Part shown: one piece after another, positions 4,297 to 23,100 of the stretch | Numbering within the stretch: the stretch's first letter is position 1 | Layout: each line of letters opens with the position of its first letter | Assembly (NCBI GenBank): GCA_947258755.1 | Contig: CAMYJO010000036.1 | Span: 1 to 49,505 of the forward strand | Reading direction: 5' to 3' | DNA length: 49,505 nt | DNA from: an uncultured Gammaproteobacteria bacterium | GTDB taxonomy: Bacteria > Pseudomonadota > Gammaproteobacteria > JAADHQ01 | Notes under the pieces: model-generated | Told to the model about the DNA's origin: nothing | Database searches by the model: none | The model's input: the letters and a program-made list of their open reading frames with translations, nothing else | Translations under genes and position numbers: made by a program

Positions 4297-4710
4297 ATGT
4301 TTTTTCCTGACGCCGAATTACGTTTTCATTGCACTGGTTGTGGCCAATGCTGTCTCGGGCATGCGGACGCGCATTACATTGAACTGGCCGCGGGCGAGGC
4401 CGCGAATATCAGGCACTATCTGGGCTTTGATAAGAAAAAATTCCAGCGTGACATCCTCGTCACCCTGGATGACAAGGGCAAGGGCATCAAGATCAATGCG
4501 CACGGACGCTGTGTGTTGTTGGATGAAAATAATCGTTGCTCAGTCTACCCGGTCAGGCCGCGGCAATGTATGACCTACCCCTTCTGGCCGGAGTTGCTGC
4601 AATCAGAACAAGACTGGCACGCCGAGGCTGCTCGCTGTGAAGGCATCAATCAGGGCGCTGTTGTCGCTGCCGCGCATATTAAGAAACAATTGAAGCTGTT
4701 GGGTTCCTGA
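4297..4710 (+). CDS. YkgJ-type cysteine-cluster protein
   Basis: The protein has 137 residues. The ATG at 4297 is chosen over 4273 because AGGGA lies 7-8 nt upstream. Cysteines cluster as HCTGCGQCC near the N-terminus, then GRCVLLDENNRCSVYPVRPRQCMTYPFWP, and a late Cys in AARCEG. This is the signature of the YkgJ / Fe-S-oxidoreductase-like zinc or iron chelating family (CxxCxxCC ... C ... C ... RPxxCxxYPF). The biochemical role of the family is poorly defined. It sits between mazG and dsrC with gaps of 63 and 133 nt. Family assignment is good, function unknown. Confidence 0.8.
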   Translation: MFFPDAELRFHCTGCGQCCLGHADAHYIELAAGEAANIRHYLGFDKKKFQRDILVTLDDKGKGIKINAHGRCVLLDENNRCSVYPVRPRQCMTYPFWPELLQSEQDWHAEAARCEGINQGAVVAAAHIKKQLKLLGS

Positions 4711-4843
4711 AATGGCGATACTTATCATCGAAGCAGGCCGCACTCGATTTTTGCAGAATGTTGGCTATCCTTAAGGAAGCCCGGTATTGCTGTTTTAGAT
4801 AACACAATGCTATGAACTTTATGTAACCCTGAGGTATAGGCCG

Positions 4844-5197
4844 ATGCCGGATATCATGAAATTTATTCTTAATGAAGCATCCATTGAGTCGGACCCTAAT
4901 GGCTATCTGCTCAACCTGGACGACTGGTCCGAGGATGTCGCAGCGGCTCTGGCGGCCGATGAGGACATCGAGCTGACCGAGCAGCATTGGGAGATTATTC
5001 ATTTTCTGCGCAATTATTATCTCGAATACGGTAATTCGCCCAACGTGCGCTCATTAATCAAAATGGTTGCGAAAAAGCTCGGTGCCGAAAAAGGCACGCG
5101 CAAATACCTGTATGACCTGTTCCCTTTAGGGCCTTCCCGCCAGGGTTGTCGGATTGCCGGACTGCCGCGACCGAATGATTGCATCGATCTGTCTTAA
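4844..5197 (+). CDS. DsrC/TusE-family sulfur carrier with two conserved cysteines
   Basis: The protein has 117 residues. The ATG at 4844 is favoured because GAGG lies 9 nt upstream; the ATG at 4856 has none. Core motifs are DWSEDVA, LTEQHWEIIHFLRNYYLEYG and LYDLFPLGP. The C-terminal arm GCRIAGLPRPNDC carries Cys102 and Cys113, exactly 11 residues apart, matching CysB and CysA of DsrC. TusE, acting only in tRNA thiolation, needs just the C-terminal cysteine. Two cysteines therefore point to a DsrC-like persulfide/trisulfide carrier. Four residues (IDLS) follow the last Cys, whereas typical DsrC ends almost directly after it. No dsrAB or tusBCD lies nearby, so it is an isolated paralogue here. 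Its stop codon opens repeat element A. Confidence 0.82.
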   Translation: MPDIMKFILNEASIESDPNGYLLNLDDWSEDVAAALAADEDIELTEQHWEIIHFLRNYYLEYGNSPNVRSLIKMVAKKLGAEKGTRKYLYDLFPLGPSRQGCRIAGLPRPNDCIDLS

Positions 5198-5607
5198 AGG
5201 CAGGGGAAAGGTACAAGGGGAAAGATAAAAGGGAAGGAATGGCCGGCTTTGCCGGCCATGATTTTATAGGCGTTTGTGTAAGTCCTTGTACTTGTTTACG
5301 AGTTTCTGGCGCAAGTACTTGCGCCAATGATTTTGTGGGAGCGGCCCTTGGCCGCGATAAACATAGTAGCGGGTTGCTAGTGGCTAGTAGCAAGGTAAAA
5401 CAGAACCCAGATCCTAGTCTTTTTCTAGCCACTAGCTACTCGCCCCTAGCTACTCGATTATCGCGGCCAAGGGCCGCTCCCACCAATAATTTGGACCTCT
5501 GGATCCATTTAAGTCAGGCGATAGCCTGCACCATCCCTTGTATCTTTTACCTTTTACTTTGTACCATGTACCTTCAATCTAGTACCTTGTATCTTGTATC
5601 TCCTTTC
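5195..5607. repeat. Composite intergenic element A
   Basis: This fills most of the gap between dsrC and amt. From the left: a purine tract beginning at the dsrC stop codon (5195-5237), whose complement reads as TTTTATC-TTTCCCC-TTGTACC-TTTCCCC; a hairpin at 5239-5259 (ATGGCCGGC-TTT-GCCGGCCAT); and a 20-bp perfect palindrome at 5307-5326. Then come perfect 26-bp inverted REP-like arms at 5335-5360 and 5458-5483. Between them lie inverted AGTAGCG/AGTGGCT and CTAGCCA/CTAGCTA heptamers. Finally ten in-phase heptamers run from 5538 to 5607 (TTGTATC, TTTTACC, TTTTACT, TTGTACC and so on). There is no coding content. Confidence 0.9.
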
Positions 5608-5654
5608 TAGTAATATCTTTGCTCTCTTTATAAATAATAATAAAGGATGCCGCT

Positions 5655-6845
5655 ATGGAATCTCTTCGATCCGGAAATGACGTTCTATTTGTCTTGTTGG
5701 GCGCGATCATGGTATTGGCCATGCATGCTGGTTTTGCCTTCCTCGAAGTAGGGACGGTACGTCGTAAGAATCAGGTCAATGCCCTGGTCAAGATTATTAC
5801 CGATTTTGCCATGTCCACAATTGCCTACTTTTTTATTGGTTATGGCCTGGCCTATGGGGTTGATTTCTTTTCCGCAGCCAGCACCCTGACTGAAAAGAAC
5901 GGTTACGAACTGGTCAAGTTTTTCTTCCTGTTGACCTTTGCCGCGGCCATTCCGGCGATCGTCTCCGGCGGTATTGCCGAGCGCGCCCGCTTCTACCCGC
6001 AGCTGATCGCCACTGCATTCCTGGTGGCCTTTATCTACCCCTTGTTCGAGGGCATGGTCTGGGGACAGATTTCGGTGCTACAAGACTGGCTGCAGGCTCG
6101 CTATGAGTTTGGTTTTCATGATTTTGCCGGTTCCATCGTTGTCCATGCCATGGGCGGCTGGATAGCGCTTACGGCCGTACTACTGCTCGGGTCACGCCAT
6201 GGCCGCTACGGTAAAAATGGTGAGATTTTTGCGCACCCACCTTCCAACATTCCGTTTCTGGCCCTGGGCGCCTGGATTCTGACTGTAGGCTGGTTTGGTT
6301 TTAATGTCATGTCGGCACAGGCCGTTGAGGGTATCAGTGGTCTGGTCGCGGTCAACTCGCTGATGGCCATGGTCGGCGGTATATTGACTGCCCTGATAGT
6401 CGGCAGGAACGACCCTGGATTCATTCATAACGGCCCACTGGCCGGGCTGGTGGCGGTGTGTGCCGGATCAGACGTTATGCATCCCCTGGGTGCCCTGGTC
6501 ACCGGTTCGGTCGCCGGTGCGTTATTCGTTATCACCTTTACCCTGACCCAGAACCGTTGGAAGATCGATGATGTGCTCGGCGTCTGGCCCTTGCATGGCC
6601 TCTGCGGTGCCTGGGGTGGCATCGCTGCCGGTATCTTTGGTATGACCTCGCTTGGTGGTATGGGCGGTGTGGCCTTCATGCCACAACTGATCGGCACCCT
6701 GGCCGGTATCGCAATCGCCCTATTGGGTGGGTTTATTGTCTATGGATTACTGAAAATGCTGATGGGACTGCGCCTGAGCCAGGAGCAGGAATACCAGGGC
6801 GCTGACCTGACGATTCATAAGATCGCATCGATGACGGATGACTAA
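5655..6845 (+). CDS. amtB: Ammonium transporter, Amt family
   Basis: The protein has 396 residues, eleven predicted membrane helices and no obvious cleavable signal. Family motifs: FLEVGTVRRKN; PAIVSGGIAERARF; the first pore histidine in FAGSIVVHAMGG; WFGFNVMS; and the second pore histidine in WPLHGLCGAWGGIAAGIFG. It conducts ammonium/ammonia across the inner membrane, normally gated by a PII protein. No glnK is adjacent, which is unusual for a bacterial amtB but common for extra paralogues. The start has an AAGGA ribosome-binding site about 9 nt upstream, and a TATAAA lies at 5629-5634. Repeat elements A and B lie directly upstream and downstream. The symbol is by family and orthology to E. 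coli amtB is not certain. Confidence 0.9.
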   Translation: MESLRSGNDVLFVLLGAIMVLAMHAGFAFLEVGTVRRKNQVNALVKIITDFAMSTIAYFFIGYGLAYGVDFFSAASTLTEKNGYELVKFFFLLTFAAAIPAIVSGGIAERARFYPQLIATAFLVAFIYPLFEGMVWGQISVLQDWLQARYEFGFHDFAGSIVVHAMGGWIALTAVLLLGSRHGRYGKNGEIFAHPPSNIPFLALGAWILTVGWFGFNVMSAQAVEGISGLVAVNSLMAMVGGILTALIVGRNDPGFIHNGPLAGLVAVCAGSDVMHPLGALVTGSVAGALFVITFTLTQNRWKIDDVLGVWPLHGLCGAWGGIAAGIFGMTSLGGMGGVAFMPQLIGTLAGIAIALLGGFIVYGLLKMLMGLRLSQEQEYQGADLTIHKIASMTDD

Positions 6846-6846
6846 C

Positions 6847-7014
6847 CAGTTGCTAGTAGCTAGTGGCGAGTAGCTAGAAAAAATCTATTTTAGTTCTTCA
6901 AATAACCTCGCCACTAGCCACTATACGGTCTACGACGCGTGTTTTGTAAGGAATATAATAGTTGTTAGGGGGCAATCTTTTCCTAGCTACCAGCCATTCG
7001 CAACTAGCTACTAA
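6847..7014. repeat. Composite intergenic element B (lacks REP arms)
   Basis: It begins 1 nt after the amt stop and ends 4 nt before the encoded CCA of the convergent tRNA-Pro. The left arm is a run of 7-nt units (AGTTGCT, AGTAGCT, AGTGGCG, AGTAGCT). The right arm at 6983-7013 is its approximate inverse (CTAGCTA, CCAGCCA, TTCGCAA, CTAGCTA). A partial extra copy (CTCGCCACTAGCCACT) lies at 6907-6922. There are no GCGGCC palindromes and no TTKHMYC tracts. This copy looks reduced or degenerate. Confidence 0.75.
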
Positions 7015-7018
7015 ACAT

Positions 7019-7095
<77 letters not shown>

Positions 7096-7124
7096 AATAC
7101 CTGTAATTGCAGAGTATCTTGGAA

Positions 7125-8093
7125 TTAATAACTTCTTTCAACCGAAAAATCGGCCAGCGACAGCATCGCTTCGATATGCGGCGATGATGGGAAAATGCTT
7201 AAGGCCTCGCGTGCCTTTTGTGCTTCATCGCGGGCCAGTTGTGCGGTGTAATTGATGGCGTCGGTTGCCTGGATGGCGGCCATGACCGCATCGATATTGT
7301 CCAGCCCGCCTTTTTCAATTGCCTCACGAACGACCGCAGCCTGTTCGCTGTTGCCATGCTGGATGGTATAAATCAGTGGCAGGGTAGGTTTGCCTTCGGC
7401 CAGGTCATCACCGATATTCTTACCCAGCTCAACGGCATTCGAGCTGTAATCAAGCACATCATCGACCAGTTGAAATGCGGTCCCCAGATGCATGCCATAG
7501 GTTGCCATTGCCTTGACCTGTGCGTCTGTTGAGCCGGCCAATATGGCGCCGAGCTCGGAACCGGCCTCAAACAGCTTGGCGGTCTTGCAATGAATCACAT
7601 CGAGGTAACTCTCGATGGTGGTGTCAGCATTATGCACATTCAGCAGTTGCATGACCTCGCCTTCGGCGATGGTGTTGGTGGCATGCGCGAGGATTTCCAT
7701 GACCCGCATGCTGTCGACCTTGACCATCATCTCAAAGGCGCGTGAATAGACAAAATCGCCGACCAGGACGCTGGCCTCGTTGCCCCAGATCGCATTCGCG
7801 GTCTGTTTGCCGCGGCGCATATTGGAGGCGTCAACGACATCATCGTGCAGCAGGGTGGCGGTATGGATAAACTCGATAATTGCGGCGACCTGGTGGTGGC
7901 CGTTGCCCTGATAACCGCAGGCGCGCGCACTCAACAGGACCAGGATAGGACGGACCCTTTTTCCACCACTATCTATAAGGTAATTACCCAGTTCGCCTAT
8001 CAGGGCGACCTCAGAGTAAAGCGACCGGCGAATCAGATCATTGACGGCATCCATATCATCATTGATGAGGTCACGGATGTCCTTCAGGTCCAT
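7125..8093 (-). CDS. ispB: Octaprenyl/polyprenyl diphosphate synthase
   Basis: The protein has 322 residues. It starts at the ATG at 8093 ([18 protein letters not shown]), which aligns with the IspB N-terminus and follows AAGGGA. An ATG at 8126 and an upstream extension lack a ribosome-binding site. Trans-isoprenyl synthase motifs are intact: [19 protein letters not shown], the first Asp-rich motif [15 protein letters not shown], the second LVDDVLDYS, and [19 protein letters not shown]. It elongates farnesyl diphosphate with IPP to make the ubiquinone side chain. It is divergent from rplU, an order conserved in many gammaproteobacteria. It probably reads through to tRNA-Pro. Confidence 0.93.
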
Positions 8094-8212
8094 ATGGTCC
8101 CTTTTTTCGACTGTTTTTGTTTGCATATAGATGAATTTACTATGTTTACCAGCTATCAGACTGCGTAGTGTACCTATCTCGTCCTGATCCTGCCAGAAAA
8201 TTGTCAAATTGA

Positions 8213-8241
8213 TTGACGGCCTGCTCGTAAATAGCTAGAAT
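8213..8241 (+). promoter_or_regulatory. Sigma-70 promoter of rplU-rpmA
   Basis: TTGACG (8213-8218) and TAGAAT (8236-8241) are separated by exactly 17 nt. Transcription would start near 8248, about 39 nt before rplU. It lies in the divergent ispB-rplU gap. Confidence 0.65.
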
Positions 8242-8286
8242 TGCCAGCTCTTTCAGATTTGGTCATAAAGTACAGGGTGATCTATT

Positions 8287-8598
8287 ATGTACGCCGTAAT
8301 ACAAACAGGTGGCAAGCAATACCGCTTAACTGCGGGCGATACAGTACGCGTCGAGACACTGGATGCGGAAGAAGGCGCCTCTGTTGAATTTGACAATATT
8401 TTGATGGTTGCTGATGGCGACAACATCAAACTGGGCACGCCTTTTGTTGAAGGTGGCAAGGTAGTCGCCAAGGTAAAGGCCCATGGCCGACACAAGAAAA
8501 TCGAGATCATCAAGTTCAATCGCCGTAAGCACTACGACAAACGAACGGGTCATCGACAGAATTATACTGAACTGGAAATCACCGATATCCAGGGTTAA
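8287..8598 (+). CDS. rplU: 50S ribosomal protein L21
   Basis: The protein has 103 residues, the standard length. It begins [18 protein letters not shown], has the conserved GDTVRVETL and [22 protein letters not shown] block, and ends [14 protein letters not shown] with the typical RxGHRQ signature. It binds 23S rRNA in the large subunit. It is first in the rplU-rpmA pair, 21 nt before rpmA. Confidence 0.98.
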
Positions 8599-8619
8599 TG
8601 GAAATAAGAGGCGCAAGCA

Positions 8620-8883
8620 ATGGCACATAAGAAAGCAGGCGGTAGTACTCGCAACGGACGTGACTCGGAGTCGAAACGTCTAGGTATCAAACGTTACGGT
8701 GGTGAAGAAGTTCTGGCTGGAAACATCATCGTACGTCAGCGTGGAACGCGTTTTCATGCCGGTAATAATGTCGGTTGTGGCAAGGACCACACCCTGTTCG
8801 CGAAGGAAAGTGGCAAGGTTGTGTTCGAGGTCAAAGGCCCTAAAAACCGCAAATTTGTCAGCGTGGTTGCAGCTGAAGCCTGA
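8620..8883 (+). CDS. rpmA: 50S ribosomal protein L27
   Basis: The protein has 87 residues. It begins [20 protein letters not shown] and contains the hallmark block [19 protein letters not shown]. The N-terminal arm that reaches the peptidyl-transferase centre is present from the start Met, without the cleaved N-terminal extension seen in Firmicutes. It is cotranscribed with rplU and followed by a strong intrinsic terminator. Confidence 0.98.
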
Positions 8884-8913
8884 GCTTATTCAAGCGGACA
8901 GATTGCTTAGAGA

Positions 8914-8937
8914 CCCCGCCTGAAGGCGGGGTTTTTT
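8914..8937 (+). terminator. Intrinsic terminator after rpmA
   Basis: A perfect 7-bp GC stem CCCCGCC-TGAA-GGCGGGG is followed by TTTTTT. It separates the ribosomal pair from obgE. Confidence 0.93.
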
Positions 8938-8954
8938 GTTTATAAGGATTGATG

Positions 8955-10451
<1,497 letters not shown>

Positions 10452-10461
10452 TGTATTTATA

Positions 10462-11595
10462 ATGCAAACACGACAACAAATAACCAGGGCCAAACGTTGG
10501 GTCGTCAAGATTGGCAGCGCGCTATTGACCGATGAAGGCCGTGGCCTGAATAAAGAATTGATCGGCCAGTGGGTCGATCAGCTAGCCGAGCTGCGCAGGA
10601 ACGGGCATGAGATCGTGCTGGTGTCGTCGGGTTCGGTGGCCGAAGGCATGACCCGCCTTGGTTGGAGTCAGCGTCCGCATGCCCTGCATGAGCTGCAAGC
10701 CGCCGCTGCTGTCGGTCAGATGGGCCTGGTTCAGGTCTATGAATCACATTTTCAACGCCATGGATTACATACCGCGCAAATCCTGTTGACCCATGAAGAC
10801 CTGGCGGACCGGCAACGGTATCTGAACGCGCGTTCTACCCTGCGTTCGTTGCTGGCATTGGGCGTGGTTCCGGTGATCAATGAGAATGATACCGTGGTCA
10901 CCGATGAAATCCGCTTTGGTGACAACGATACCCTGGCGGCGCTGGTGGCTAATTTCACCGAAGCGGATGTGTTAGTGATCCTGACCGATCAACAAGGCTT
11001 GTTCGATAAGGACCCGAGAACACATGCCGATGCCCGTCTGATTTCAAGCGGTTGTGCCGGTGATAGCAATCTTGAAGACATTGCTGGCGGTGCCGGTAAA
11101 CTGGGTATGGGCGGCATGTTGACCAAGGTCAGGGCGGCGGCACGCGCGGCACGCTCCGGTGCTGCGACCGTGATTGCATCCGGTAACGAGACGGATATAT
11201 TGCTGCGCCTGAGTTGCGGCGAGGACTTGGGTACCTTGTTATTACCCGAGGAAGAACCACTGCTGGCGCGCAAGCAATGGTTGGCCGGTCAGTTAAAGGC
11301 CAAGGGTCGTTTGCTAATCGACCAGGGTGCGGTCAAGGTATTACGCGATCAGGGCAGGAGTTTACTCCCCGTCGGCCTGACTGCCGTTGAAGGTCATTTT
11401 AGCCGCGGTGAATTGGTCGCCTGCATCGGCCCGGATGGTGCTGAGGTCGCACGCGGACTGGTTAATTACAATAACGATGAATGCCGACGACTGATCGGTA
11501 AATCGTCGGACCAGATTGAGTCTATTCTAGGTTATGTCGATGAGGCTGAATTAATCCATCGCGATGATATGGTGATAACGGCAGATAAAAGATGA
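10462..11595 (+). CDS. proB: Glutamate 5-kinase
   Basis: The protein has 377 residues. The amino-acid kinase domain (about 1-265) has [62 protein letters not shown] and [19 protein letters not shown]. The C-terminal PUA domain (about 285-365) has [14 protein letters not shown] and [20 protein letters not shown]. It phosphorylates glutamate in the first step of proline synthesis; proA is not in the window. The start at 10462 has no Shine-Dalgarno sequence; the pyrimidine tract of element C ends 10 nt upstream. The last codons (ADKR) fall in the purine tract of element D. The gene is thus bracketed by an inverted repeat pair. Confidence 0.95.
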
Positions 11596-11908
11596 AAGGG
11601 GAAAGATAAAAGGGGTTGTGTGGCCGTATTCATACGGCCAAGCCTGATTTCAATGGCCTCGTGCCTTTTTCATCTGTAGGAGCGGTCCTTGACCGCGATA
11701 TCAGAGTAGCGAGGGCCGAGTAGCTAGTGGCTAGAAAAAGACCAGGGTTTTGGCTCTGTTTTACCTCGCTACTAGCTACTAGCCACTCGTTACTGTTTTA
11801 TCGCGGCCAAGGGCCGCTCCCACAGGCTGGACATGAATATATTAATAAGTCTGAGCATATTCATATGCTCACTCATTCCCTTGTATCTTTCCCCTTTTAT
11901 CTTTTACC
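11582..11908. repeat. Composite intergenic element D
   Basis: The left purine tract (11582-11615) starts within the last codons of proB. A hairpin follows at 11621-11640 (TGGCCGTAT-TC-ATACGGCCA). REP-like arms lie at 11676-11700 (GCGGTC-CTT-GACCGC variant) and 11798-11823 (GCGGCC type). Between them are AGTAGCG, AGGGCCG, AGTAGCT, AGTGGCT and the inverse CTCGCTA, CTAGCTA, CTAGCCA. The right tract 11881-11908 reads TTGTATC-TTTCCCC-TTTTATC-TTTTACC. Segment 11642-11823 is a near copy of element C in inverse orientation, including the outer flank with CATTGAAATCAGGC. It lies between the convergent proB and rpsT genes. Confidence 0.9.
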
Positions 11909-11910
11909 TG

Positions 11911-11951
11911 CCCACAAAAAAGGCCGGTCAATGACCGGCCTTTTTTGTGGG
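11911..11951. terminator. Bidirectional terminator between proB and rpsT
   Basis: A perfect 20-bp stem with a 1-nt centre. Arms begin CCCACAAAAAAGGCCGG and the inverse. The A-run and T-run flank the GC core, so it can terminate both the plus-strand (proB side) and minus-strand (rpsT) transcripts. It directly follows element D. Confidence 0.9.
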
Positions 11952-11960
11952 CGCCTAAAC

Positions 11961-12221
11961 CTACATCGCGCGGATGGTCTGGTTCAGACGGCTTTTATGA
12001 CGTGCAGCCTTGTTTTTATGGATCAGGCCTTTGCCTGCCATCTGGTCAAGAGCGGGAATGGCGGCCTTATAGGCGGCCTCTGCTGCAGTTTTATCACCGG
12101 ATTCGATAGCCTTGACTACATTTTTCAGATAGGTACGCATCATCGAACGCTGACCGGCGTTACGCTTACGATGTGTTTCGGCCTGACGGGCCCTTTTTCT
12201 AGCTTGTGCTGAGTTAGCCAA
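11961..12221 (-). CDS. rpsT: 30S ribosomal protein S20
   Basis: The protein has 86 residues, begins [26 protein letters not shown] and ends [13 protein letters not shown]. It is a highly basic three-helix bundle, as in all S20 proteins, and binds 16S rRNA early in small-subunit assembly. An AGGAG ribosome-binding site lies about 9 nt upstream. It is divergent from murJ, as in Pseudomonas and E. coli relatives. It terminates at the palindrome at 11911-11951. Confidence 0.98.
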
Positions 12222-12261
12222 GGTAATACTCCTGCAAAAAATTCGCTTTCAAAGACCGCGC

Positions 12262-12290
12262 ATATTGCGGATTTTTTGCCTGTTTGTCAA
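12262..12290 (-). promoter_or_regulatory. Likely promoter of rpsT
   Basis: On the minus strand, a perfect TTGACA (12290-12285) is followed after 17 nt by CAATAT (12267-12262). Transcription would begin about 35 nt before the rpsT ATG. The -35 is strong and the -10 is a three-of-six match. Confidence 0.5.
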
Positions 12291-12443
12291 GTATGGCGGG
12301 GCTGTTTTTAGCGCTGTATGGACTGTAGGGTAGTAATATAGTGTGTCGGGCCGGAAAGCCGGGTATTATGGCTCGTGATGTTTGTTGGGGAAACAGGCGA
12401 AATAGTGTATTTTTGAGCGAAATGGCCATAAAAACCATAAAAA

Positions 12444-14021
12444 ATGAGTAAAAAACTAATAAAATCCACTGCCATTGTCAGTGCCATGACCATCCTGTCG
12501 CGGGTACTGGGATTTATACGTGATATCGTCCTGGCCCAGGTATTTGGCGCCAAGGCGGCGACCGACGCCTTTTTTGTAGCCTTTAAAATCCCTAATTTCA
12601 TGCGCCGCCTGTTTGCCGAGGGGGCCTTTGCGCAGTCCTTCGTGCCGGTGCTGAGCGAGACCAAGGCCGCCGGGGATGAGCAGGCCACCAAGGACCTGGT
12701 CGACCATGTGAGCGGCACGCTGGGCCTATTGTTGCTGGTGATTACCGTGATCGGGATTGTGCTGGCACCGGTATTGATCATGCTGTTTGCGCCGGGCTTT
12801 ATACTCAGCCAAGGCGAAGAGCAGGCGGTCTTGGCCAGTACCATGCTGCGCATCACTTTTCCTTATCTGTTATTTATTTCACTGACGGCCTTGGCCGGCG
12901 GTATCCTGAATACCTATGGCCGATTTGCGGTGCCGGCGTTTACCCCGGTGTTGTTGAATGTGTGTATGATCAGTGCTGCGGTGCTACTGGCACCCCGCAT
13001 GGACAATCCGGTCATGGCCTTGGCCTGGGGTGTATTGGCTGCAGGTATCGCGCAGTTATTATTCCAGTTACCGTTTCTGCGGCAAATTGGCATGTTGCCC
13101 CGTCCGCGTTTGCGACGCTCGCATGCCGGTGTCAGCAAGATTATGAAGTTGATGTTACCGGCGATTTTCGGCTCATCGGTGGCGCAGATTAATTTATTGC
13201 TGGATACCGTCATCGCCTCTTTTCTGGCTGCTGGTAGCGTCAGCTGGTTGTATTATTCCGACCGCCTGGTCGAGTTCCCATTGGGTGTCTTTGGCATCGC
13301 CCTGGCCACTGTTATTCTGCCCAGTCTGTCCAGCCGGCATGCAGAGCGCTCGCCGGAAATGTTCAGTATGACGCTCGACTGGGCCCTGCGTTGGGGTTTG
13401 CTGATTGGTCTGCCGGCCACGGTCGGTCTGTTTCTACTGGCGGCACCAATGATTGTGACCCTGTTCCAATACGGCGAGTTTAATGCCGATGCCGTGGCGA
13501 TGACTTCACTGAGCCTGATGGCTTATAGCCTCGGGCTGACCGGTTTTATCCTGGTCAAGGTGCTGGTGCCCGGGTTTTTTGCGCGTCAGGATACACGCAC
13601 ACCGGTGCGGATAGGTATCGTCGCGGTGGCGGCGAACATGCTGTTGAATATTGTTATCGTGGTGCCGATGGCGATGAGCGGGGCAACAGCGCCGCACGCC
13701 GGCCTGGCATTGGCAACGTCATGTTCATCGATTATCAATGCCTCGCTGTTGTTTCATACGCTAAAGAAGAAAGGCATCTTCCAGGCGCGTAAAGGCTGGC
13801 CGCTACTGCTCATGCAGATGGGCATGGCCTGTACCGCCATGGCGTTATTCATACTGTGGGCGAAGGCCGATATTGGGCAATGGCTGGAGTGGAAGGCCAT
13901 GGATCGTGTCTGGAACCTGTCCTGGCTTATCGCTATGGCCGCGGTTATTTATATTATGACTTTACTGATCTCCGGCGCACGCCCATGGCGTTGGCGCGTT
14001 AGCCTAAGTGATAGTTGCTAA
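12444..14021 (+). CDS. murJ: Lipid II flippase MurJ
   Basis: The protein has 525 residues with about 14 membrane helices. The MviN/MurJ N-terminus is clear: LIKSTAIVSAMTILSRVLGFIRDIVLAQVFGA, then AFFVAFKIPNFMRRLFAEGAFAQSFVPVL. Later motifs include LPAIFGSSVAQINLLLDT, SWLYYSDRLVEFPLGVFGIALATVILP and VKVLVPGFFARQDTRTPVRIG. It flips undecaprenyl-linked lipid II across the inner membrane for peptidoglycan synthesis. It is divergent from rpsT and upstream of ribF, the usual gammaproteobacterial order. Repeat element E starts about 10 nt after its stop. Confidence 0.95.
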   Translation: MSKKLIKSTAIVSAMTILSRVLGFIRDIVLAQVFGAKAATDAFFVAFKIPNFMRRLFAEGAFAQSFVPVLSETKAAGDEQATKDLVDHVSGTLGLLLLVITVIGIVLAPVLIMLFAPGFILSQGEEQAVLASTMLRITFPYLLFISLTALAGGILNTYGRFAVPAFTPVLLNVCMISAAVLLAPRMDNPVMALAWGVLAAGIAQLLFQLPFLRQIGMLPRPRLRRSHAGVSKIMKLMLPAIFGSSVAQINLLLDTVIASFLAAGSVSWLYYSDRLVEFPLGVFGIALATVILPSLSSRHAERSPEMFSMTLDWALRWGLLIGLPATVGLFLLAAPMIVTLFQYGEFNADAVAMTSLSLMAYSLGLTGFILVKVLVPGFFARQDTRTPVRIGIVAVAANMLLNIVIVVPMAMSGATAPHAGLALATSCSSIINASLLFHTLKKKGIFQARKGWPLLLMQMGMACTAMALFILWAKADIGQWLEWKAMDRVWNLSWLIAMAAVIYIMTLLISGARPWRWRVSLSDSC

Positions 14022-14031
14022 AGCAGTTGTG

Positions 14032-14144
14032 AGAGGCTAGTAGCTGGTAGCGAGGTAACACAAAACCAGAATTCTGGTCTTTTTCTAGCCACTCGCTACT
14101 CGCCACTAGCGACACGAATATCGCGGCCGAAGGGCCGCTCCTAC
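14032..14144. repeat. Composite intergenic element E (single REP arm)
   Basis: It starts about 10 nt after the murJ stop. Left 7-nt units are AGAGGCT, AGTAGCT, GGTAGCG; the centre is a perfect 14-bp palindrome ACCAGAATTCTGGT (14065-14078). The right units are CTAGCCA, CTCGCTA, CTCGCCA, CTAGCGA. One REP-like arm is present at 14118-14144, with a 4-nt loop variant. The left REP arm and the outer pyrimidine/purine tracts are missing. It lies in the murJ-ribF gap. Confidence 0.85.
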
Positions 14145-14253
14145 AGAAAGACTCTCCTTGCTTACCATTCGTCGCCAGCTCCTGATGTTAAATTAGGGTT
14201 TGTCACACAAGTTCAGTATACTTTGGGCGCATCATTATTCGATTCAGGACAGC

Positions 14254-15186
14254 ATGGAACTCATTCGCGGCTTACATAATCTTCGTCCCCGTCATCGTGG
14301 CTGTGTCGCCACGATCGGTAATTTTGATGGCGTCCATCTGGGTCATCAGGCGGTCCTCGGGCAACTGGCAGAAAAGGCCGAGGCCATGGGTCTGCCGACC
14401 GTGGTGATCACCTTTGAGCCACAGCCGCAGGAGTACTTTGCACCACAGCAGGCCCGTTCCCGGTTGACGCGCCTGCGCGAAAAGTTTCAGGCCCTGAAGC
14501 GTTATTCCGTCGACCGTATATTATGTCTGCGTTTTGACAAATCACTGGCTGAGCTCGAAGCACAGGACTTTATCGACAAGGTATTGTTACAGGGCCTGGA
14601 TATTAAATACCTGGTAGTCGGCGATGACTTCCGTTTTGGCAAGGGTCGTAGCGGTGACTTTGATCTGTTGTATCAAACCGGACAGCAGCATGGCTTCCCG
14701 GTTGTTAATATGCATACCTTTGGCATCGATGGTGAGCGTGTCAGCAGTACTCGTATTCGCCAGGCCCTGGAGGAGGGTGACCTGACCCTGGCCGAGAAAT
14801 TGCTCGGGCGTCCCTATCGTATGTGCGGGCGTGTCGCCCATGGCGATAAGCGTGGACGCACAATAGGCTTTCCTACCGCCAATATTCATTTGCATCGCAA
14901 GACCTCGCCGGTGCAGGGGGTTTATGCCGTCGAGATGTTCGGTATCGACGGCGAACCGGTGGCGGGTGTCGCCAATGTCGGAAACCGACCGACCGTCGAT
15001 GGCACGCGTAGCCTGCTTGAAGTGCATCTGTTTGACTTCAATGCCGAGATCTATGGCAGCTATGTACATGTGAATTTCCTGCATAAAATACGCGAGGAAA
15101 TGAAATTTGAAAGTTTTGAGCAATTGCAGCAGCAGATCATGGAAGATGCCGGCAAGGCCAGGCAATGGTTCATCGACAGAGTCTAA
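14254..15186 (+). CDS. ribF: Bifunctional riboflavin kinase / FAD synthetase
   Basis: The protein has 310 residues. The start at 14254 (MELIRGLHNLRPRHRG) matches the family N-terminus and has an AGGA site; an upstream extension to 14200 is unlikely. The FMN adenylyltransferase half (about 1-185) has GCVATIGNFDGVHLGHQAVL and VVGDDFRFGKGRSGDFDLL, ending in VSSTRIRQALEEGD. The riboflavin kinase half (about 186-310) has GRVAHGDKRGRTIGFPTANI and GVANVGNRPTVDG. It converts riboflavin to FMN and then FAD. It is first of the ribF-ileS-lspA-fkpB run. Confidence 0.96.
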   Translation: MELIRGLHNLRPRHRGCVATIGNFDGVHLGHQAVLGQLAEKAEAMGLPTVVITFEPQPQEYFAPQQARSRLTRLREKFQALKRYSVDRILCLRFDKSLAELEAQDFIDKVLLQGLDIKYLVVGDDFRFGKGRSGDFDLLYQTGQQHGFPVVNMHTFGIDGERVSSTRIRQALEEGDLTLAEKLLGRPYRMCGRVAHGDKRGRTIGFPTANIHLHRKTSPVQGVYAVEMFGIDGEPVAGVANVGNRPTVDGTRSLLEVHLFDFNAEIYGSYVHVNFLHKIREEMKFESFEQLQQQIMEDAGKARQWFIDRV

Positions 15187-15294
15187 TCTCTGATAACAAG
15201 TCGCAGATTAGTTAGGCCTTTTTTCCCCTACCTTGAATTATAAGGTATGATATCCAGCCAAAATAACGATTAGCAAGTAAGTAAAAGAGGACTC

Positions 15295-18042
15295 ATGGCG
15301 GATTACAAGCATACCTTGAATCTACCCAAAACAGATTTCCCGATGCGCGGCAACCTGGCCCAGCGCGAACCGGACATGCTCAAGCATTGGCAGGACATGG
15401 ATCTGTACGGAAAAATACGCGCGGCAGCGGCAGGTAAACCCCGGTTTATTCTGCATGACGGCCCGCCGTATGCGAATGGTGAGATCCATATCGGCCATGC
15501 GGTCAACAAGATTCTCAAGGATATCGTGATTAAATCGCGCGGCATGATGGGTCAGGATGCGCCCTATGTACCCGGTTGGGATTGTCACGGTCTGCCGATC
15601 GAGTTAAATGTCGAGAAAAAGGTCGGCAAGCCTGGACACAAGGTGGATGCACGTAGCTTTCGCAAGGCCTGTCGTGAGTATGCCGGTAAACAGGTCAACA
15701 AACAGCGCGATGATTTCAAGCGCCTGGGTATACTCGGTCAATGGGATCAGCCCTATCTGACCATGGACTACCAGTTTGAAGCGGACATCGTGCGCTCACT
15801 GGCAAAAATTATCGATAACGGCCATTTGCATAAGGGTTCCAAGCCGGTGCACTGGTGTACTGACTGCGGCTCGGCCCTGGCCGAGGCCGAAGTCGAATAC
15901 GAAGACCGCAATTCGCCGGCCATCGATGTGCGTTTTAATGTGCTCGATGAAGAGAGCCTGTTGGCCCGTTGCCAGGATGTCAGTGAAGGCCAGGGACCGA
16001 TCTCGGTTGTCATCTGGACCACGACTCCGTGGACCCTGCCGGCCAATCAGGCCGTGTCGCTGAACCCGGGACTGGACTACGAGCTGAGCGACTATCAGAT
16101 TGTTGGACGTTGCCAGGGACAGGAGCTTGAAGGCCTGAAGCTCGGGCATCCGTTTTATCAGCGTGAAGTGCCTATCATTCTTGGCGATCATGTCACTACC
16201 GAGGCCGGTACCGGCGCCGTGCATACTGCACCGGGGCATGGCCAGGAAGACTATGTGGTCGGCAGTCGTTACCATCTCAAGGTTGATAATCCTGTCGCTG
16301 CCAACGGCTGTTTCCTGCCCGACACCGAATTGTTTGCCGGCGAGCATGTGTTCTCGGCCAACGACCATGTCATCGAGGTGCTCAAGGCGCGTGGTAAACT
16401 GGTCCATCATCAGTCCCTGCGCCACAGTTACCCGCATTGCTGGCGCCACAAGACGCCGATCATTTTTCGCGCCACGCCGCAATGGTTTATCAGTATGGAT
16501 CAAGGCGGATTGCGGCAGGCGGCCATGACCGAGATTGGCAAGACCGAATGGATGCCGGACTGGGGTCAGGCGCGCATCGAGAGCATGGTGGAAAATCGCC
16601 CGGACTGGTGTATCTCGCGGCAGCGTACCTGGGGTGTGCCGATCCCGTTGTTTGTGCATAAACAAACAGCGGAACTGCATCCGGCTACCGACACCTTACT
16701 GGAAGCGGTTGCCACGCAGATCGAAAGCGACGGTATCGATGCCTGGTTTGAATTAAAGGCAGAGAGCCTGATCGGTGATGATGCCGAGCATTATGACAAG
16801 GTCACCGATACGCTGGATGTCTGGTTCGATTCCGGTGTCAGTCATAACGCCGTGCTCAACAGAAGGGATGCATTGTCATTTCCGGCCGACCTGTACCTGG
16901 AGGGTTCTGACCAGCATCGTGGCTGGTTCCAGTCATCCTTGTTGACCTCCATCTGCATGCATGAGCAGGCGCCCTATAAGTCGGTGTTAACGCATGGGTT
17001 TACCGTTGATGCCAAGGGCCAGAAAATGTCCAAGTCCAAGGGCAATGTGGTCGCGCCGCAGAAAGTGGTTAACCGCCTGGGTGCCGATATCCTGCGTCTG
17101 TGGGTAGCGGCGACCGACTACCGTAATGAAATCACGGTGTCGGATGAAATCCTGAACCGGGTGGCCGATTCCTACCGCCGTATCCGTAATACCGCGCGTT
17201 ATCTGTTATCCAATCTGAATGGCTTTGATCCAGCGCGCGATCTGCTCAGTGCAGAACAGATGTTGCCACTGGATCGTTGGGCGGTGGACAGGGCGGCATC
17301 GATGCAGGCCGAGATTATCAAGGCCTATGAAGATTACCAGTTCCATGTGATCTATCAGAAGCTGCATAACTTTTGTAATGTCGATATGGGTAGCTTCTAT
17401 CTTGATATCACCAAGGACCGACAATACACCACGCAGAAGGACAGTATCGCGCGGCGTTCCGGGCAATCGGCGATGTTTCATATCTGCGAGGCGATGACGC
17501 GCTGGTTGGCGCCGATCCTGAGCTTTAGCGCCGACGAGATCTGGAAATACATGCCGGGCGAACGCAAAGAATCGGTATTCCTGGAAGAATGGTATCAGGG
17601 CTTGTTCGAATTGCAGGCCGATGAGCAATTCAATCGAGCCTACTGGGACAGGGTCATCGAGACCCGTGAAGCGGTCAGCAAGGAATTAGAGCGCCTGCGA
17701 GTGGCGGGTGGCATCGGTTCATCATTAGATGCCGAGGTCGATCTGTATTGTGGCCAGGAACTGTTCGCGCAATTATCCAGCCTGGAAGACGAGCTGCGCT
17801 TTATCCTGATCAGCTCTTATGCGCGCGTACACCGGGATACAGACAAGACCGATGATGCAGTGCATTTTTCCTTGAGTACAAACGATGAGGTCTGGGTGGC
17901 AGTGAGCCCATGCGCACATGAAAAATGTGTGCGTTGCTGGCATCATCGCCAAGACGTCGGTACGCATGCTGAACATCCTGAATTGTGTGATCGTTGCATT
18001 GACAATGTCGATGGTGATGGTGAGCCAAGGTCATTCGCGTGA
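15295..18042 (+). CDS. ileS: Isoleucyl-tRNA synthetase
   Basis: The protein has 915 residues, close to bacterial IleS (about 940). The class I signature HIGH is at 65-68 ([14 protein letters not shown]). The editing domain spans about 200-400 with [11 protein letters not shown] and [21 protein letters not shown] is near residue 577. The C-terminal zinc module has [12 protein letters not shown] and CDRCIDNV. It charges tRNA-Ile and edits Val-tRNA. AGAGGA precedes the ATG. lspA begins 46 nt after its stop, and no T-box or attenuator was noted upstream. Confidence 0.98.
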
Positions 18043-18088
18043 TCGCGGATTTCAGTGTCATTCAGTTTTAGGGATTAAGTATACAATC

Positions 18089-18571
18089 ATGTTGAAATAT
18101 CTGTGGATTACATTAGCCGTTATCGTGCTGGATCAAATCAGTAAGCAACTGGCCGAGTATTATCTGGTCTATCATGTGCCAGTGCCGGTCATGCCTTCGT
18201 TTAATCTGACCTTGTCCTATAACCCGGGTGCGGCATTCAGTTTTCTCAGCGAAGCCGGTGAATGGAAGCGTTGGTTTTTTATTATCCTTGGGCTCATCGT
18301 CAGTGCCGTTATCTTCGTCTGGCTACGCAAATTACCGGCGACCGATAAATGGGTTGCTATAGCGCTAGGCTTCATTTTAGGTGGTGCACTGGGTAATATG
18401 ATTGACCGGATGTTTAACGAAGGCCTGGTTATCGATTTTATCCAGGTCTACTACGGTGAATGGAGCTGGCCGATATTCAATATCGCCGACTCGGCCATCA
18501 GCATCGGCGTGGCCATATTGTTATTCGATGCTGTTTTTGATGGCAACAAAAAAGTAAAACAAGACGCCTGA
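18089..18571 (+). CDS. lspA: Lipoprotein signal peptidase
   Basis: The protein has 160 residues with four membrane helices. The ATG at 18089 ([19 protein letters not shown]) aligns with LspA; the frame is open further upstream but overlaps ileS. The catalytic Asp residues lie in [19 protein letters not shown] and [11 protein letters not shown], and the conserved [11 protein letters not shown] is present. It cleaves prolipoproteins after diacylglyceryl transfer. The ribosome-binding site is weak, so coupling to ileS is possible. fkpB starts 10 nt downstream. Confidence 0.96.
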
Positions 18572-18581
18572 TGGTAAACAC

Positions 18582-19043
18582 ATGAGTGAAACAGCGACTA
18601 TTCAATCCGGCGATGAAGTTGTGCTGCATTGTTCGATTACACTCGAAGACGGCACCGTCGCCGAGAGCACCTTTGGTGATGAACCGATTCGGATCACTAT
18701 GGGTGATGAAAGCGTGTTGATCAACGGCCTGCAACTGGCGCTGTATGGCCTCAAGGTCGGTGACCGCGAAAGCATTAGCATTGATCCCGACAATGCCTTT
18801 GGTATGCCGGACGATGAAGCCATTCAGCAAATGCCGCGTTCTGATTTCCCCGCCGATATGCAGCTGGAAGAGGGGCAGATAATCGCGTTTTCAACGCCGG
18901 ATGGCGATGAGATACCGGGCGCGGTCAAACAGCTTGACGAAAACACCGTGACCGTGGATTTTAATCACCCGTTGGCCGGGCATGAGTTGAAGTTTGAGGC
19001 GGAGATTCTTGAAGTAATAGCTAAAGGGCAGGGGAAAGATTAA
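18582..19043 (+). CDS. fkpB: FKBP-type peptidyl-prolyl isomerase, SlpA/FkpB type
   Basis: The protein has 153 residues. The FKBP domain (IQSGDEVVLHCSITLEDGTVAESTFGDEP...LINGLQLALYGLKVGDRESISIDPDNAFG) carries the inserted IF domain typical of SlyD/SlpA (about 75-130) and closes with VDFNHPLAGHELKFEAEILEV. It has no His-rich tail, which fits FkpB and not SlyD. It is a cytosolic folding helper. The neighbour order lspA-fkpB is conserved. In E. coli and Pseudomonas ispH follows directly; here a pilus operon intervenes. The last residues (AKGQGKD) and stop are encoded in the purine tract of element F. Confidence 0.93.
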   Translation: MSETATIQSGDEVVLHCSITLEDGTVAESTFGDEPIRITMGDESVLINGLQLALYGLKVGDRESISIDPDNAFGMPDDEAIQQMPRSDFPADMQLEEGQIIAFSTPDGDEIPGAVKQLDENTVTVDFNHPLAGHELKFEAEILEVIAKGQGKD

Positions 19044-19485
19044 AGATACTTAAGTTCAGGTTAAAGGGAAAAGATACAAGATAAAAGGGAAAGGTGGTTT
19101 GCTTTTAGTTTAATTTTTTATCCATCGATAACGTATTTACTTTTTTCTTTTAATCTTTTTGTAGGAGCGGCCCTTGGCCGCGAAGCAAGAGTAGCGAGGG
19201 CCGTGTAGCTAGTGGCTAGAAAAAAACCAATCAGCTGATTCTCTTTACCTCGCTACCAGCCACTAGCCTACTAGCTACTGTTTTATCGCGGCCAAGGGCC
19301 GCTCCCACAGGTGCGGCTGAGATTGTTTGATTATTCTTTCTACGGAAGGAGGGATAAGCGGAAAATAGTCAATATTTCCTTGTGATTGTCTGCTCTAGAG
19401 TAATGTCAGTTCAAGACCCTATTATCTTGTATCTTTCATCTTTCATCTTTCATCTTTCATCTTTAACCTTTTACCTGCCTTTAAC
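19023..19485. repeat. Composite intergenic element F
   Basis: It fills the whole gap between the convergent fkpB and pilE stops. The left purine tract (19023-19094) begins inside fkpB; its complement reads TTTTATC, TTGTATC, TTTTCCC, TTTAACC, and later TTTAATC, TTTCCCC in phase. REP-like arms lie at 19161-19184 and 19283-19308. Between them are AGTAGCG, AGGGCCG, TGTAGCT, AGTGGCT, a central 12-bp palindrome AATCAGCTGATT, and the inverse heptamers. The right tract 19427-19486 is TTGTATC, four exact TTTCATC units, TTTAACC, TTTTACC, then TTTAACC after TGCC. It reaches the pilE stop codon. Confidence 0.9.
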
Positions 19486-19929
19486 CTACCAACAATCTGC
19501 CGTGTCGTCCCCTGCGCCATTGGATTCTTTTTTGCCAGCTTGGTCGAGCTCAAAGGATGCACATTGGGTATCCTGGTCCTGGCCACCTTCGCTTCTCGCT
19601 GTCGCTTGAAGGGTGAAGGTTGTGGCAGTTAGCACGGTATCTGTTATGGCGTAGTAACCCTCTCCATCGAATGGCGTATCATCCGAATTAGAATCGATAA
19701 AGGCGTTGCTGCCGTCTATCAGTTCACAGCTGGAGTTGGTGTAACTATTAAATTCGGTGAAACAGCGTTCCAGTATTTGTGCTGCTTGCAGCAGCACTGA
19801 CTGGGCTTCGGTCCTGCGCGATTTACGCACACTGTCCTGGTAGGCAGGGAAGGCAATTGCTGCCAGGACGGCGATGACGACGACGACGATCAATACTTCG
19901 ATCAGGGTAAAGCCTTTGGTTTTTTGCAT
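19486..19929 (-). CDS. pilE: Type IV minor pilin PilE-like
   Basis: The protein has 147 residues. The start at 19929 (MQKTKGFTLIEVLIVV) has AGGA 8 nt upstream; longer frames are unsupported. It has a class III signal with prepilin peptidase cleavage at G6-F7, Glu5 of the mature protein, a hydrophobic helix (VLIVVVVIAVLAAIAFPAY), and a C-terminal Cys pair (QCASF ... ADCW) typical of the D-region. It is the last gene of the minor-pilin operon and probably primes pilus assembly with PilV/W/X and PilY1. Its stop codon touches the heptamer tract of element F. Confidence 0.9.
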   Translation of the reverse strand: MQKTKGFTLIEVLIVVVVIAVLAAIAFPAYQDSVRKSRRTEAQSVLLQAAQILERCFTEFNSYTNSSCELIDGSNAFIDSNSDDTPFDGEGYYAITDTVLTATTFTLQATARSEGGQDQDTQCASFELDQAGKKESNGAGDDTADCW

Positions 19930-20064
19930 AACATGTTTCCTGTTAAGTCTTGGCAGGCCACGCAGGACCAATTCATTAATGAGTAAAATATCAATCCATG
20001 GGTATTATAGTGAACGCGGTATTGCATACCGATGGCAATAGCAACTCTCTATCCAGTAATCAAA

Positions 20065-20099
20065 CCTGCAGCCGGTGAGCATGACTCACGGGCTGCAGG
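20065..20099. terminator. Stem-loop after pilY1
   Basis: 15-nt arms (CCTGCAGCCGGTGAG and its inverse, one mismatch) surround a 5-nt loop. On the minus strand it follows the pilY1 stop by 6 nt, with only a weak T-rich tail. It could be a weak terminator or mRNA-stabilising hairpin that reduces pilE expression relative to pilY1. Confidence 0.5.
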
Positions 20100-20105
20100 T
20101 CCAAA

Positions 20106-23100
20106 CTAGCGCAGCTGGCGCCAGGATTGACGTCCGGCATCAGTACTGCCGGATTCTGTGGTGACTTCCAATCCGCCAGTGGTGCCGCTGCTGTACTTGT
20201 ATTCCTTGTCGCCGGTGGAAACTACAACCGGTGTCTTGGTAATACCGACCGTGGATTTCTTGCCAGAGACAACAAGCTTGTCATCATCGGCATCAATATC
20301 ACCATCATTATCGGTATCCAGGATCTTCACCAGATCAGCCTCGGTAAACAAGCCATCGCCGGTAAGGTCAAACGGTGTTTCTGGCAGGCGGGCGCCGGTA
20401 ATGCCATCCAGTTCCATCAGCCAACTGGTGCCGCCATTATTACAGGGTTCGGATTCCGGGATCAGCGTGGTAAACACGATACGATCACCGCGCAGTAATG
20501 ATGGGCTAATAACACGTTCGCCCTCGACGCCATTCACCGGTGATTGCAGGTTCATATACCATCCCTGCTTGATCGGTTGGGTGTTGTCGGTGTAGTTAAC
20601 TGTATTGTCCGTGGTAACTCTGACGCCAAAGCCCAGGGCCGTGGCCTCTGCCAGGATCGATTGTTGCTGCAGCGCGCTGCGACCACTGATTACGGAGCCA
20701 TTATCGCGGAGGCCATAATAAGTATGCAGCTGGGGTGAAGCGACATTGTTGTCGCCGGTCTCAAAGTACTTGCCAGTGCCGAAATAGATCATGACGTCGC
20801 CATCCGGGTGTCGGCCGACCTGAGGTTTGGCCGTAATCGGCTGGGGATTGGAAGAGGCATCCAGCGCAGTAAAGATCGGTGCCGGATTGCCCATAGCACT
20901 GAAGGCAGACCCCCAGCTGTTGGAATTGGTGTTACTGACATCAAATTTCCACATCTTACCCTTGAGATCACCGGCATAGATGGAATCCACAATTTTATCA
21001 CCATTGACATCGACGGCGACAGGGGTGCTGAGACCGTTGCCAGTCGCACTACCGACATCAAAGGTTTCGATAATACTGCCATCCGCGATATCAATGATAA
21101 ACAGGGTCGCTGTTTGACTGGCGCTATCGTAGCCATTGCCGATGATAGCGGCCCATTTACCATTGGCCATACGGGCAATGGTCGGGTCCGGGATGGTGTA
21201 ACCCAATTTGTTGATGATGTCGGTATTCGTCGTAGAACTGGCGGAGAACTCCCACAGTACCTTGCTGGCGTCAAAGTTATCCGGGTCGGTGACATCCAGG
21301 GCAAATATACCCTTGCCACCCGCACCGGTGCTGCCGACCAGCACGGTACGCCAGGCATCGGCGGTGCCATCGTTATCTGTATCGATATAGACATCACCGG
21401 CACGCGGTGAGCCATCGACAACGTACTGGTGAGCCAGGTTGAGACCGTAGTCCTTGTTACTCAGATTTGGCAGGTCGGGAATAACCGTCGCTGGCACATA
21501 GGCAAATTTTTCAACGCCGGTGTTGGCATCCAGCGCATGTAACATACCGTCATTGGCACCAAAATAGATAGTGTCATTCCTGCTGGCCGTAGCGGTCAGG
21601 AAGGCGGGATAAGAGCTGCCTTCGGTACCCAGGGTGGCATAACCGAAATTATCGGTACCGACATACCAGGGGCTGGAATTGATGACATCGCCCAACAGGC
21701 GTCGGTGCGAGGTCGTTGCTTTTGTGATCGGGTCTTTGGTAACAACAGTGCGCTCGCGATAGGTTGTGCCTTCATTGGTGCCGTCGCCGCGCAGGTAGTT
21801 GATATGTGCCTGCGTACCGAGGATAGTCTGTTGGTCGGCGCTGAAGTCAGCCAATGTATTAAAGGCGATGCCAGTGCCGCTAGGCGCCGTTGTCGCCGAG
21901 GCAGGCGGCTTATAGGTGAATATTTTACGGGCCGTGTGATCATTAGGGATCTTGTTCAATGTATCGGTATGCCAGTGTGGTGTAGAGATAACCGCCCCGG
22001 TGGTCTGATTCAGTTTAAAGGCCTGAACTTGACCGGACCAGTCGGTAGCATCAAAACTGGCCTGATAGATCAGCGTATTGGTATCCAGCCGCGTCGAGTT
22101 GGCGGCGACACCCGAGGCCGAAGCGAGGCCAATGGTATTCTGAACGGACTTGACCAGGGAATCGGCCAGGTCCGCGCCGCCGGTTGCTGCATAGGCTGTG
22201 CCGCCGGCATTATTCGCTGTATCCTGTAGTACGTCACGGATACCGCTGGCGAAACTGATGGTATCGACAGTCAGGTACTGCTTGCCGGTCATGCCGGTAT
22301 CGGTACGTAGATCACGCAGGCTGGTTCTTAGCTCATCGGTGGCGGGGTCTATAATAGTAGCCTTTTTGGGGGTGTCACTATTATAGCATGAGGCAACGGA
22401 TTTATCGCAAAATGCCCAGTAAGCCACATCATCGAGATTGTCTGCGCCATTGCCAGTAGTAATATCATCTGCATCACTGTCGCTATCGTAGTCCAGCAGG
22501 GCAGCAGGGATAGTGGCGTCTTCGAAGGGCTCGCCGTCGGTGATGATCAGCACCTTGCTCGCGAAGCAACTGAGGTTCTTGTTATAATCGGCGTCATAGA
22601 ACGGGTCGTTGGCAGCGCCTAATGACTTGGTGAAATTGCTGGCATCATAATGCGGGTTATCCTGCTCAAAATACTGGACAACCTCCCACAGGTTCTCGGC
22701 CAGCGGTGTGGTACCCCATATCAATGGGTAATGCTCTATTACATCGACGATATCGGTAATAGAGGTGGTGCCGATGTAGCCCTCCAGCGTGGTACGATAG
22801 CCGCCCGCATCACTTGGTTTACTCACGAACGGGTTCTTTGGAATCATGAATCTCATGGTGCCGCCATCGGTGGTGACGCCGGAATAAATATTGTTACTAT
22901 CCGGGTCATAGTTATAAAAGGAAATGCCCAGGCGTACATCGTCTTTTATGGTATGCAAAATGCCGGTGGGTTCATCCTTGACAACGACGGCCAGGTTATA
23001 ACTGGTACTGTTGGCGTTGAGTTTGGCATAGGGATCATAGGTGGTATGCGTCGCCCCATCTTCAGCCGGAGACGTGACCGTGAAGCTTGTACTATTCGCT

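Follow-up and report, generated by a model that had tools for sequence, protein, structure and literature searches.

The question raised by this locus is what its tracts of degenerate 7-nt units are and what, if anything, reads them. The window, the whole stretch of 49,505 nucleotides that was analysed, comes from an uncultured gammaproteobacterium whose genome (G000) supplied about 1.2 Mb of sequence for the analyses below, together with selected loci from other genomes, among which G001 and G003 are congeners and G109 belongs to a different family. Loci centred on tracts were chosen because they carry tracts and are biased for conservation statistics. We propose that the tracts are arms of sites for a pentameric protein of the PF05635 family (IVP), a reading that we hold to be probable and that rests on what surrounds the genes of this family in many bacteria.

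Heptamer tracts and the five-anchor rule

The initial annotation described ten consecutive in-phase units at 5538-5607, and these are present exactly as it listed them. Five-unit tracts of its consensus, TTKHMYC, with a score of at least 31/35 occur 24 times in 1.19 Mb of the host genome and not once in locally Markov-shuffled DNA, so that its expectation of unit counts above those of shuffled sequence is borne out. Four exact units in the register CTTKHMY are matched 40, 37, 15, and 29 times across four genomes of the genus (40 in G000), while the reversed pattern gives no matches in the same four. A genome-wide peak at period 7 had also been anticipated, and there is a slight rise, with intergenic autocorrelation values of 0.2691, 0.2696, and 0.2713 at lags 7, 14, and 21 and about 0.261-0.266 at lags 8, 13, 15, 20, and 22; the peak is weak, and the whole-genome test is a blunt one because the arrays are sparse. 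Two further points need amendment. The region 10392-10451 does not keep a single phase, since the 4-unit arrays that make it up, 10391-10418 and 10423-10450, are separated by a slip of 4 nt, and the label of 'outer tracts', although these are indeed heptameric, is incomplete because the inner tracts constitute a second family of heptamer arrays.

The natural register of the first, AAG-type family is CTTKHMY, and its arms usually end on the outer side in CTG, or CAG as read on the purine strand. Such a closure is found in 43/58 arms of G000, 29/38 of G003, and 28/31 of another family, f107, and arms of four units number 35, 22, and 20 in the same three sets. The dominant arm, read on the purine strand, is thus CAG-(RKDMAAG)4, with five AG (CT) anchors spaced by exactly 7 nt; 84 of 138 AAG-type arms have five anchors, 16 have four, and 10 have six. 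The inner tracts of the window are built of the unit CTMGYHA and follow the same five-anchor rule: of 92 CTAG-type arms, 50 have five CT anchors. An arm may stand alone or belong to an inverted pair, which encloses a hairpin, an unrelated spacer, or an IVP gene; spacers between paired arms are about 10 to 400 nt. They often abut gene ends, and the modal distance from the stop codon to the first unit is 6 nt (stop-NNN-CAG).

Heptamer arms and associated palindromes in the window
Feature	Position	Strand	Remarks
AAG-type arm CAG GGGAAAG GTACAAG GGGAAAG ATAAAAG	5201..5231	+	purine strand, five AG anchors; 3 nt past stop codon of dsrC-like gene
REP-like palindrome GTGGGAGCGGCCCTTGGCCGCGATAAA	5335..5361	+	nested between AAG and CTAG arms; inverted partner 5458-5483
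CTAG-type arm, left	5367..5394	-
CTAG-type arm CTAGCCA CTAGCTA CTCGCCC CTAGCTA CTC	5425..5455	+	five CT anchors
AAG-type array	5537..5610	+	pyrimidine strand, ten units (tract under study)
CTAG-type arm	6843..6877	-	five CT anchors; no AAG arms in this element; adjoins tRNA-Pro
CTAG-type arm	6907..6927	+	partial
CTAG-type arm	6983..7013	+	degenerate
AAG-type arm CAG-(RKDMAAG)4	10031..10061	+	3' end of obgE reads into arm
AAG-type array	10126..10153	+	pyrimidine strand, 4 units
CTAG-type arm CTCGCTA CTAGCTA CTAGCCA CTCGTTA CTG	10208..10238	-	five CT anchors
CTAG-type arm	10269..10303	+	4 units
AAG-type array	10391..10418	+	4 units
AAG-type arm (CTTKHMY)4-CTG	10423..10453	+	4-nt phase slip after array 10391..10418; directly upstream of proB
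AAG-type arm CAG-(RKDMAAG)4	11582..11612	+	3' end of proB
CTAG-type arm	11704..11734	-	five CT anchors
CTAG-type arm	11765..11795	+	five CT anchors, ends in CTG
AAG-type arm (CTTKHMY)4-CTG	11880..11910	+	partner of 11582-11612
CTAG-type arm	14024..14054	-	degenerate
CTAG-type arm	14085..14112	+	4 units
AAG-type arm CAG-(RKDMAAG)4+	19057..19094	+
CTAG-type arm	19189..19219	-
CTAG-type arm	19249..19279	+	degenerate
AAG-type array	19419..19477	+	8 units + CTG, includes run of CTTTCAT units
Further REP-like palindrome pairs	10181/10327, 11676/11823, 19161/19308		single one ending at 14144

Some other features of the window deserve mention. The obgE and proB reading frames run into heptamer arms (10031-10076 and 11582-11595, respectively) and thereby acquire repeat-encoded C-terminal tails. 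An ordinary bidirectional intrinsic terminator lies directly beside an arm at 11916-11955, and the arms therefore do not replace terminators. Rfam covariance models applied to 4700-20200 recover only the tRNA-Pro, with no match to the heptamer elements. A perfect 79-bp tandem duplication at 834-991 runs from the end of one ORF into the start region of the following one.

Inverted heptamer arrays on both sides of IVP genes

In one orthologous gap, AAG-type arms in G001 and CTAG-type arms in G000 flank the same small gene, whose four-helix-bundle product is a member of Pfam family PF05635 (E 1e-31). The IVP gene of the host genome itself (G000:C6:94691-94996) lies between rpsI and a tRNA and is bracketed by inverted CTAG-type arrays (L258 617-647 and 1028-1057). 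The solved PF05635 structures that its 117-aa product matches, 2gsc and 2rld, each comprise five chains, and proteins of this family (IVP/S23) are described as homopentameric toroids (PMC4990558; Lin 2006 as cited in PMC10053308).

A search of 16 heptamer-bearing genomes found PF05635 in 11, and nearly every strong-scoring locus is bracketed by inverted heptamer arrays, of units as different as GTGAGGG, TTCAGTG, GGCAGTC, ATACAAG, TAGCTAG, and GTGAATA. In a test of the flanks, loci were picked by the protein alone and scored as strong at a lag-7 identity of at least 19/28. This value is reached at lag 7 in 24/34 gammaproteobacterial flanks, at lag 5 in 1/34, and at lags 6, 8, 9, and 10 in none of the 34, with control rates of 0.26% for shuffled flanks and 4.6% for distal windows of all IVP loci. 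Genomes of other phyla give 31/50 flanks at lag 7; for Bacteroidota the counts are 19/58 at lag 7, 10/58 at lag 8, and at most 1/58 at lags 4-6 and 9-11. The flanks of RAYT genes, a control with another mobile gene, have no period-7 heptamer arrays. Among 82 IVP loci with full flanks, 54 have strong period 7, 12 weak period 7 (at least 17, a threshold that 9.5% of shuffled loci also reach, compared with under 1% for the strong one), 10 period 8, one period 9, and five none. The placing of IVP genes between inverted heptamer arrays is seen in Gammaproteobacteria, Bacteroidota, Cyanobacteria, and others.

The arrays are inverted at 43 loci and direct at nine, and the 5' arm is directly upstream of the IVP start codon. 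Although the heptamer sequence varies between loci, AG/CT is a common anchor: when 7-spaced runs of all 16 dinucleotides are compared, AG has the longest upstream (4.58, versus 1.69 when shuffled) and CT the longest downstream (4.58). Anchor runs of four or more around IVP genes most commonly have a length of five, and period-8 arrays mostly contain five or six AG/CT anchors, so that five is the modal number there as well. The period-8 loci are L388, L390, L364, L394, L395, L401, L415-L417, and L420, eight of the ten falling in one IVP clade.

Three observations bear on the distribution of IVP genes. The rpsI/tRNA-Gln junction is a recurrent site of IVP cassettes with differing heptamers in several families (L331, L332, L328, L330, L333, L335, and L337). 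Methylotuvimicrobium buryatense 5G (G240) has 553 four-unit CTTKHMY matches and two IVP loci with unlike arms, of GTGAATA and CTTGAAC types (L121, L274-L276, L329, and L336). Eleven PF05635 matches are found in a 1.5 Mb genome (G311:C1), most of them at the family cut-off score.

Dispersed arrays follow the heptamer of the resident IVP

The heptamer flanking the IVP gene is of CTAG type in G000, G003, and G109, of AAG type in G001 and G314, and of TAGCAAG type in G222. Dispersed CTAG arrays number 140 in G000, 69 in G003, 101 in G109, 30 in G222, and one in G314; there are none in G001 and seven other Gammaproteobacteria, and none in G240, where control matches do occur. As judged from these sequences, the dispersed heptamer type follows that flanking the resident IVP, and the dispersed CTAG arrays have both its heptamer and its anchor number. 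At rpsI/tRNA-Gln, the G000 IVP shares 85% identity with its G003 counterpart, 60% with that of G109, and 53% with that of the congener G001; it is thus nearer to a protein from another family with the same heptamer than to that of a congener, and protein and heptamer are therefore linked. In a set of 49 loci, heptamer similarity is correlated with IVP identity, although weakly (Mantel r 0.17, p 0.001), and period 7 and period 8 are distributed on the IVP tree with three changes versus 9.6 when shuffled (p 0.0005), with taxonomy partly confounding the period-8 clade.

Co-occurrence on a larger scale is in the same direction. IVP is present in 19/32 gammaproteobacterial genomes with AAG arrays versus 50/318 without, and arrays and PF05635 occur together in 35/39 cases across phyla, a figure that is only partly informative because PF05635 is common in Bacteroidota (157/198). 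No IVP was detected in some genomes with AAG arms, such as G092 and G304. The AAG arms of the host have no detected cognate, because only a CTAG-type IVP, and none of AAG type, was found in its genome; IVPs cognate to AAG arms are those of G001 and G314.

Comparison of orthologous sites suggests an order of events. There are orthologous gaps in which G000 has CTAG-type arms and G001 has AAG-type arms. The pairs in the window enclose REP-like palindromes and CTAG tracts, whereas in G003 a short hairpin is all that lies between the arms at the orthologous proB-rpsT and obgE-proB sites. CTAG/REP material is thus nested within AAG elements whose positions G000 shares with G003, and the AAG arms look the older in the host because of this nesting and because the resident IVP is of CTAG type. 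The orthologue comparisons inspected gave no sign of a target duplication, and the arms within one element are degenerate rather than identical. At one further site a 14-unit CTTTAAT-type array in G002 (L248 8387-8484) has no counterpart at the orthologous place in G000 (L011 15733-15760), and it appears to be a recent gain or expansion.

Taken with the five chains of the solved structures, the five anchors are most simply read as one IVP subunit per anchor. One pentamer would bind one arm: the single strand, of RNA or DNA, would wrap around the ring, with an NAG/CT step held by each subunit in the way that TRAP holds its (G/U)AG repeats. An IVP gene and its arms would constitute an autonomous unit, and the dispersed arms of the window would be non-autonomous copies inserted near gene ends, with the CTAG family and its REP palindromes nested in older AAG elements whose type of IVP survives in G001. 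We consider it probable that the tracts are arms of such pentamer sites and the dispersed copies non-autonomous relatives of IVP elements. The heptad-reading factor envisaged in the initial annotation is thus well supported as an idea and gains a candidate in the PF05635 pentamer, whose genes are array-flanked across phyla, the binding itself being what we infer from this arrangement.

Alternative explanations, related systems, and implications

A different role for the same protein is the alternative that fares best, although we regard it as unlikely. IVP could be a post-transcriptional regulator like TRAP or CsrA, its own 5' arms serving autoregulation and the dispersed arms defining a regulon, with no mobility involved. 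The abutment of arms on start or stop codons, including the IVP start, is as this would predict, and G000 and G003 have arms at the same orthologous places in which the unit words have altered and the CTT frame is retained; a translational role has also been suggested for the TAACTGA repeats (PMC4679880). However, the congeners differ in the presence of arrays (dsrC-amtB in G001; L011, L054, and L038 in G000), the rpsI cassette of IVP and arms is of differing type within one genus, and the genes neighbouring arrays have no obvious common function.

Replication slippage, with 7 nt as a favoured bacterial unit, would account for the tracts as long simple-sequence repeats. Heptanucleotide repeats are over-represented in bacteria and polymerase slippage has been proposed as the cause (PMC4679880, PMC4692102), and there are homogeneous expansions that look the part, such as the 14 units in G002 and 10 CTTTTAT-type units in G001. 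Slippage should however yield homogeneous units in variable number, whereas unit number peaks sharply at four plus CTG, giving five anchors, and adjacent units are no more similar than shuffled ones (p 0.16-0.36), so that the arrays do not look slippage-made. Moreover, the arms form inverted pairs with an IVP gene between them and follow the phylogeny of that protein, and we reject this explanation as improbable.

Equally improbable is that the arms act only as palindromic RNA or DNA hairpins, for example as bidirectional terminators or RNase III sites, with IVP as a passenger. Inverted arms do surround GC hairpins at gene 3' ends, and partner arms are slightly more similar than random partners (0.569 versus 0.503, p 0.005), but many arms are single, the complementarity of partners is far from perfect, and ordinary intrinsic terminators adjoin some arms (11916-11955); neither the five anchors nor the matching of heptamer to IVP would be explained. 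Rho binds spaced YC steps, and CTTKHMY always yields YC at unit junctions, every 7 nt in a G-poor RNA, but a Rho-utilisation tract is a very remote prospect since other IVP heptamers (GTGAGGG, GAGTTCT, TAGCTAG) give no YC-rich, G-poor strand and Rho would explain neither the five units nor the linkage to IVP.

The arrangement in which an IVP gene is flanked by its own heptamer has parallels in two known systems. The IVS/S23p elements in the 23S rRNA genes of Coxiella, Leptospira, and others encode a protein of the same family and are selfish elements bounded by inverted repeats, and the Coxiella IVS has tandem GACAGAT heptamers directly upstream of the S23p start (PMC4990558). Here, in contrast, the IVP gene is intergenic with inverted arrays on both flanks, the window elements lie between protein genes and not in 23S rRNA helix 25 or 45, and five-anchor arrays are dispersed genome-wide with a heptamer that differs from locus to locus. 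REP/REPIN-RAYT (TnpA-REP) systems likewise have a protein gene flanked by its own repeat, together with many non-autonomous copies that are dispersed singly or as inverted pairs, but RAYT is a Y1 transposase and IVP a four-helix-bundle pentamer. RAYT was rejected as the cognate protein because its flanks lack period-7 arrays, and a plain MITE/REPIN reading was set aside because the REP palindromes, while real, are a separate nested layer, the heptamer elements of G003 being at the same sites without them. The likeness to TRAP, a ring protein with one AG-containing step per subunit at fixed spacing, would be one of mechanism; IVP is a pentamer with 4-nt spacers between NAG steps and is an unrelated protein, not a TRAP member.

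The TAACTGA repeats of Beggiatoaceae, the STRR of cyanobacteria, and the G-rich heptamers of Xanthomonas and Nostoc are also intergenic, some in convergent inverted pairs (70 inverted heptamer pairs in Xanthomonas campestris; PMC4692102). Unlike the IVP arrays, none has so far been linked to a protein, although a mobile repeat-binding protein was proposed for the TAACTGA repeats (PMC4679880). The units described here, CTTKHMY or CTMGYHA, do not have the published TAACTGA or STRR sequence. It is nonetheless doubtful that they are a separate and unrelated heptamer, because IVP heptamers vary freely while keeping a CT-N5 or N5-AG frame, which TAACTGA (= CTGATAA) also fits. The Xanthomonas and Nostoc heptamers GGGAATC and GGGGATT have no AG or CT anchor, and not every published heptamer therefore fits.

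Heptameric repeats have been noted in bacterial genomes for decades without a cause, and PF05635/S23/IVP pentamers have been solved without a function. We found no statement of a general link between heptamers and IVP in the open-access journal literature, to which the search was confined. Linking the two makes them jointly testable, because it pairs a ring protein with a nucleic-acid site of five steps and predicts definite numbers, five anchors 7 or 8 nt apart. It seems to us rather more probable than otherwise that many of the intergenic heptamers of bacteria in different phyla are footprints of a single class of protein-marked element, in which five AG/CT steps at a spacing of 7 (or 8) nt are read by a pentameric IVP ring and the heptamer and its spacing co-evolve with the protein. 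A modular reader with a clade-dependent heptamer code could serve as a programmable nucleic-acid binder. There would also be a bearing on the spread of 23S rRNA intervening sequences and on Avd, a homologue of PF05635 proteins in diversity-generating retroelements (PMC10053308), which acts together with a reverse transcriptase and TR/VR repeats. If true, the proposal would provide a function for the long-orphan S23/IVP family and an origin for heptamer repeats that have been called unexplained.
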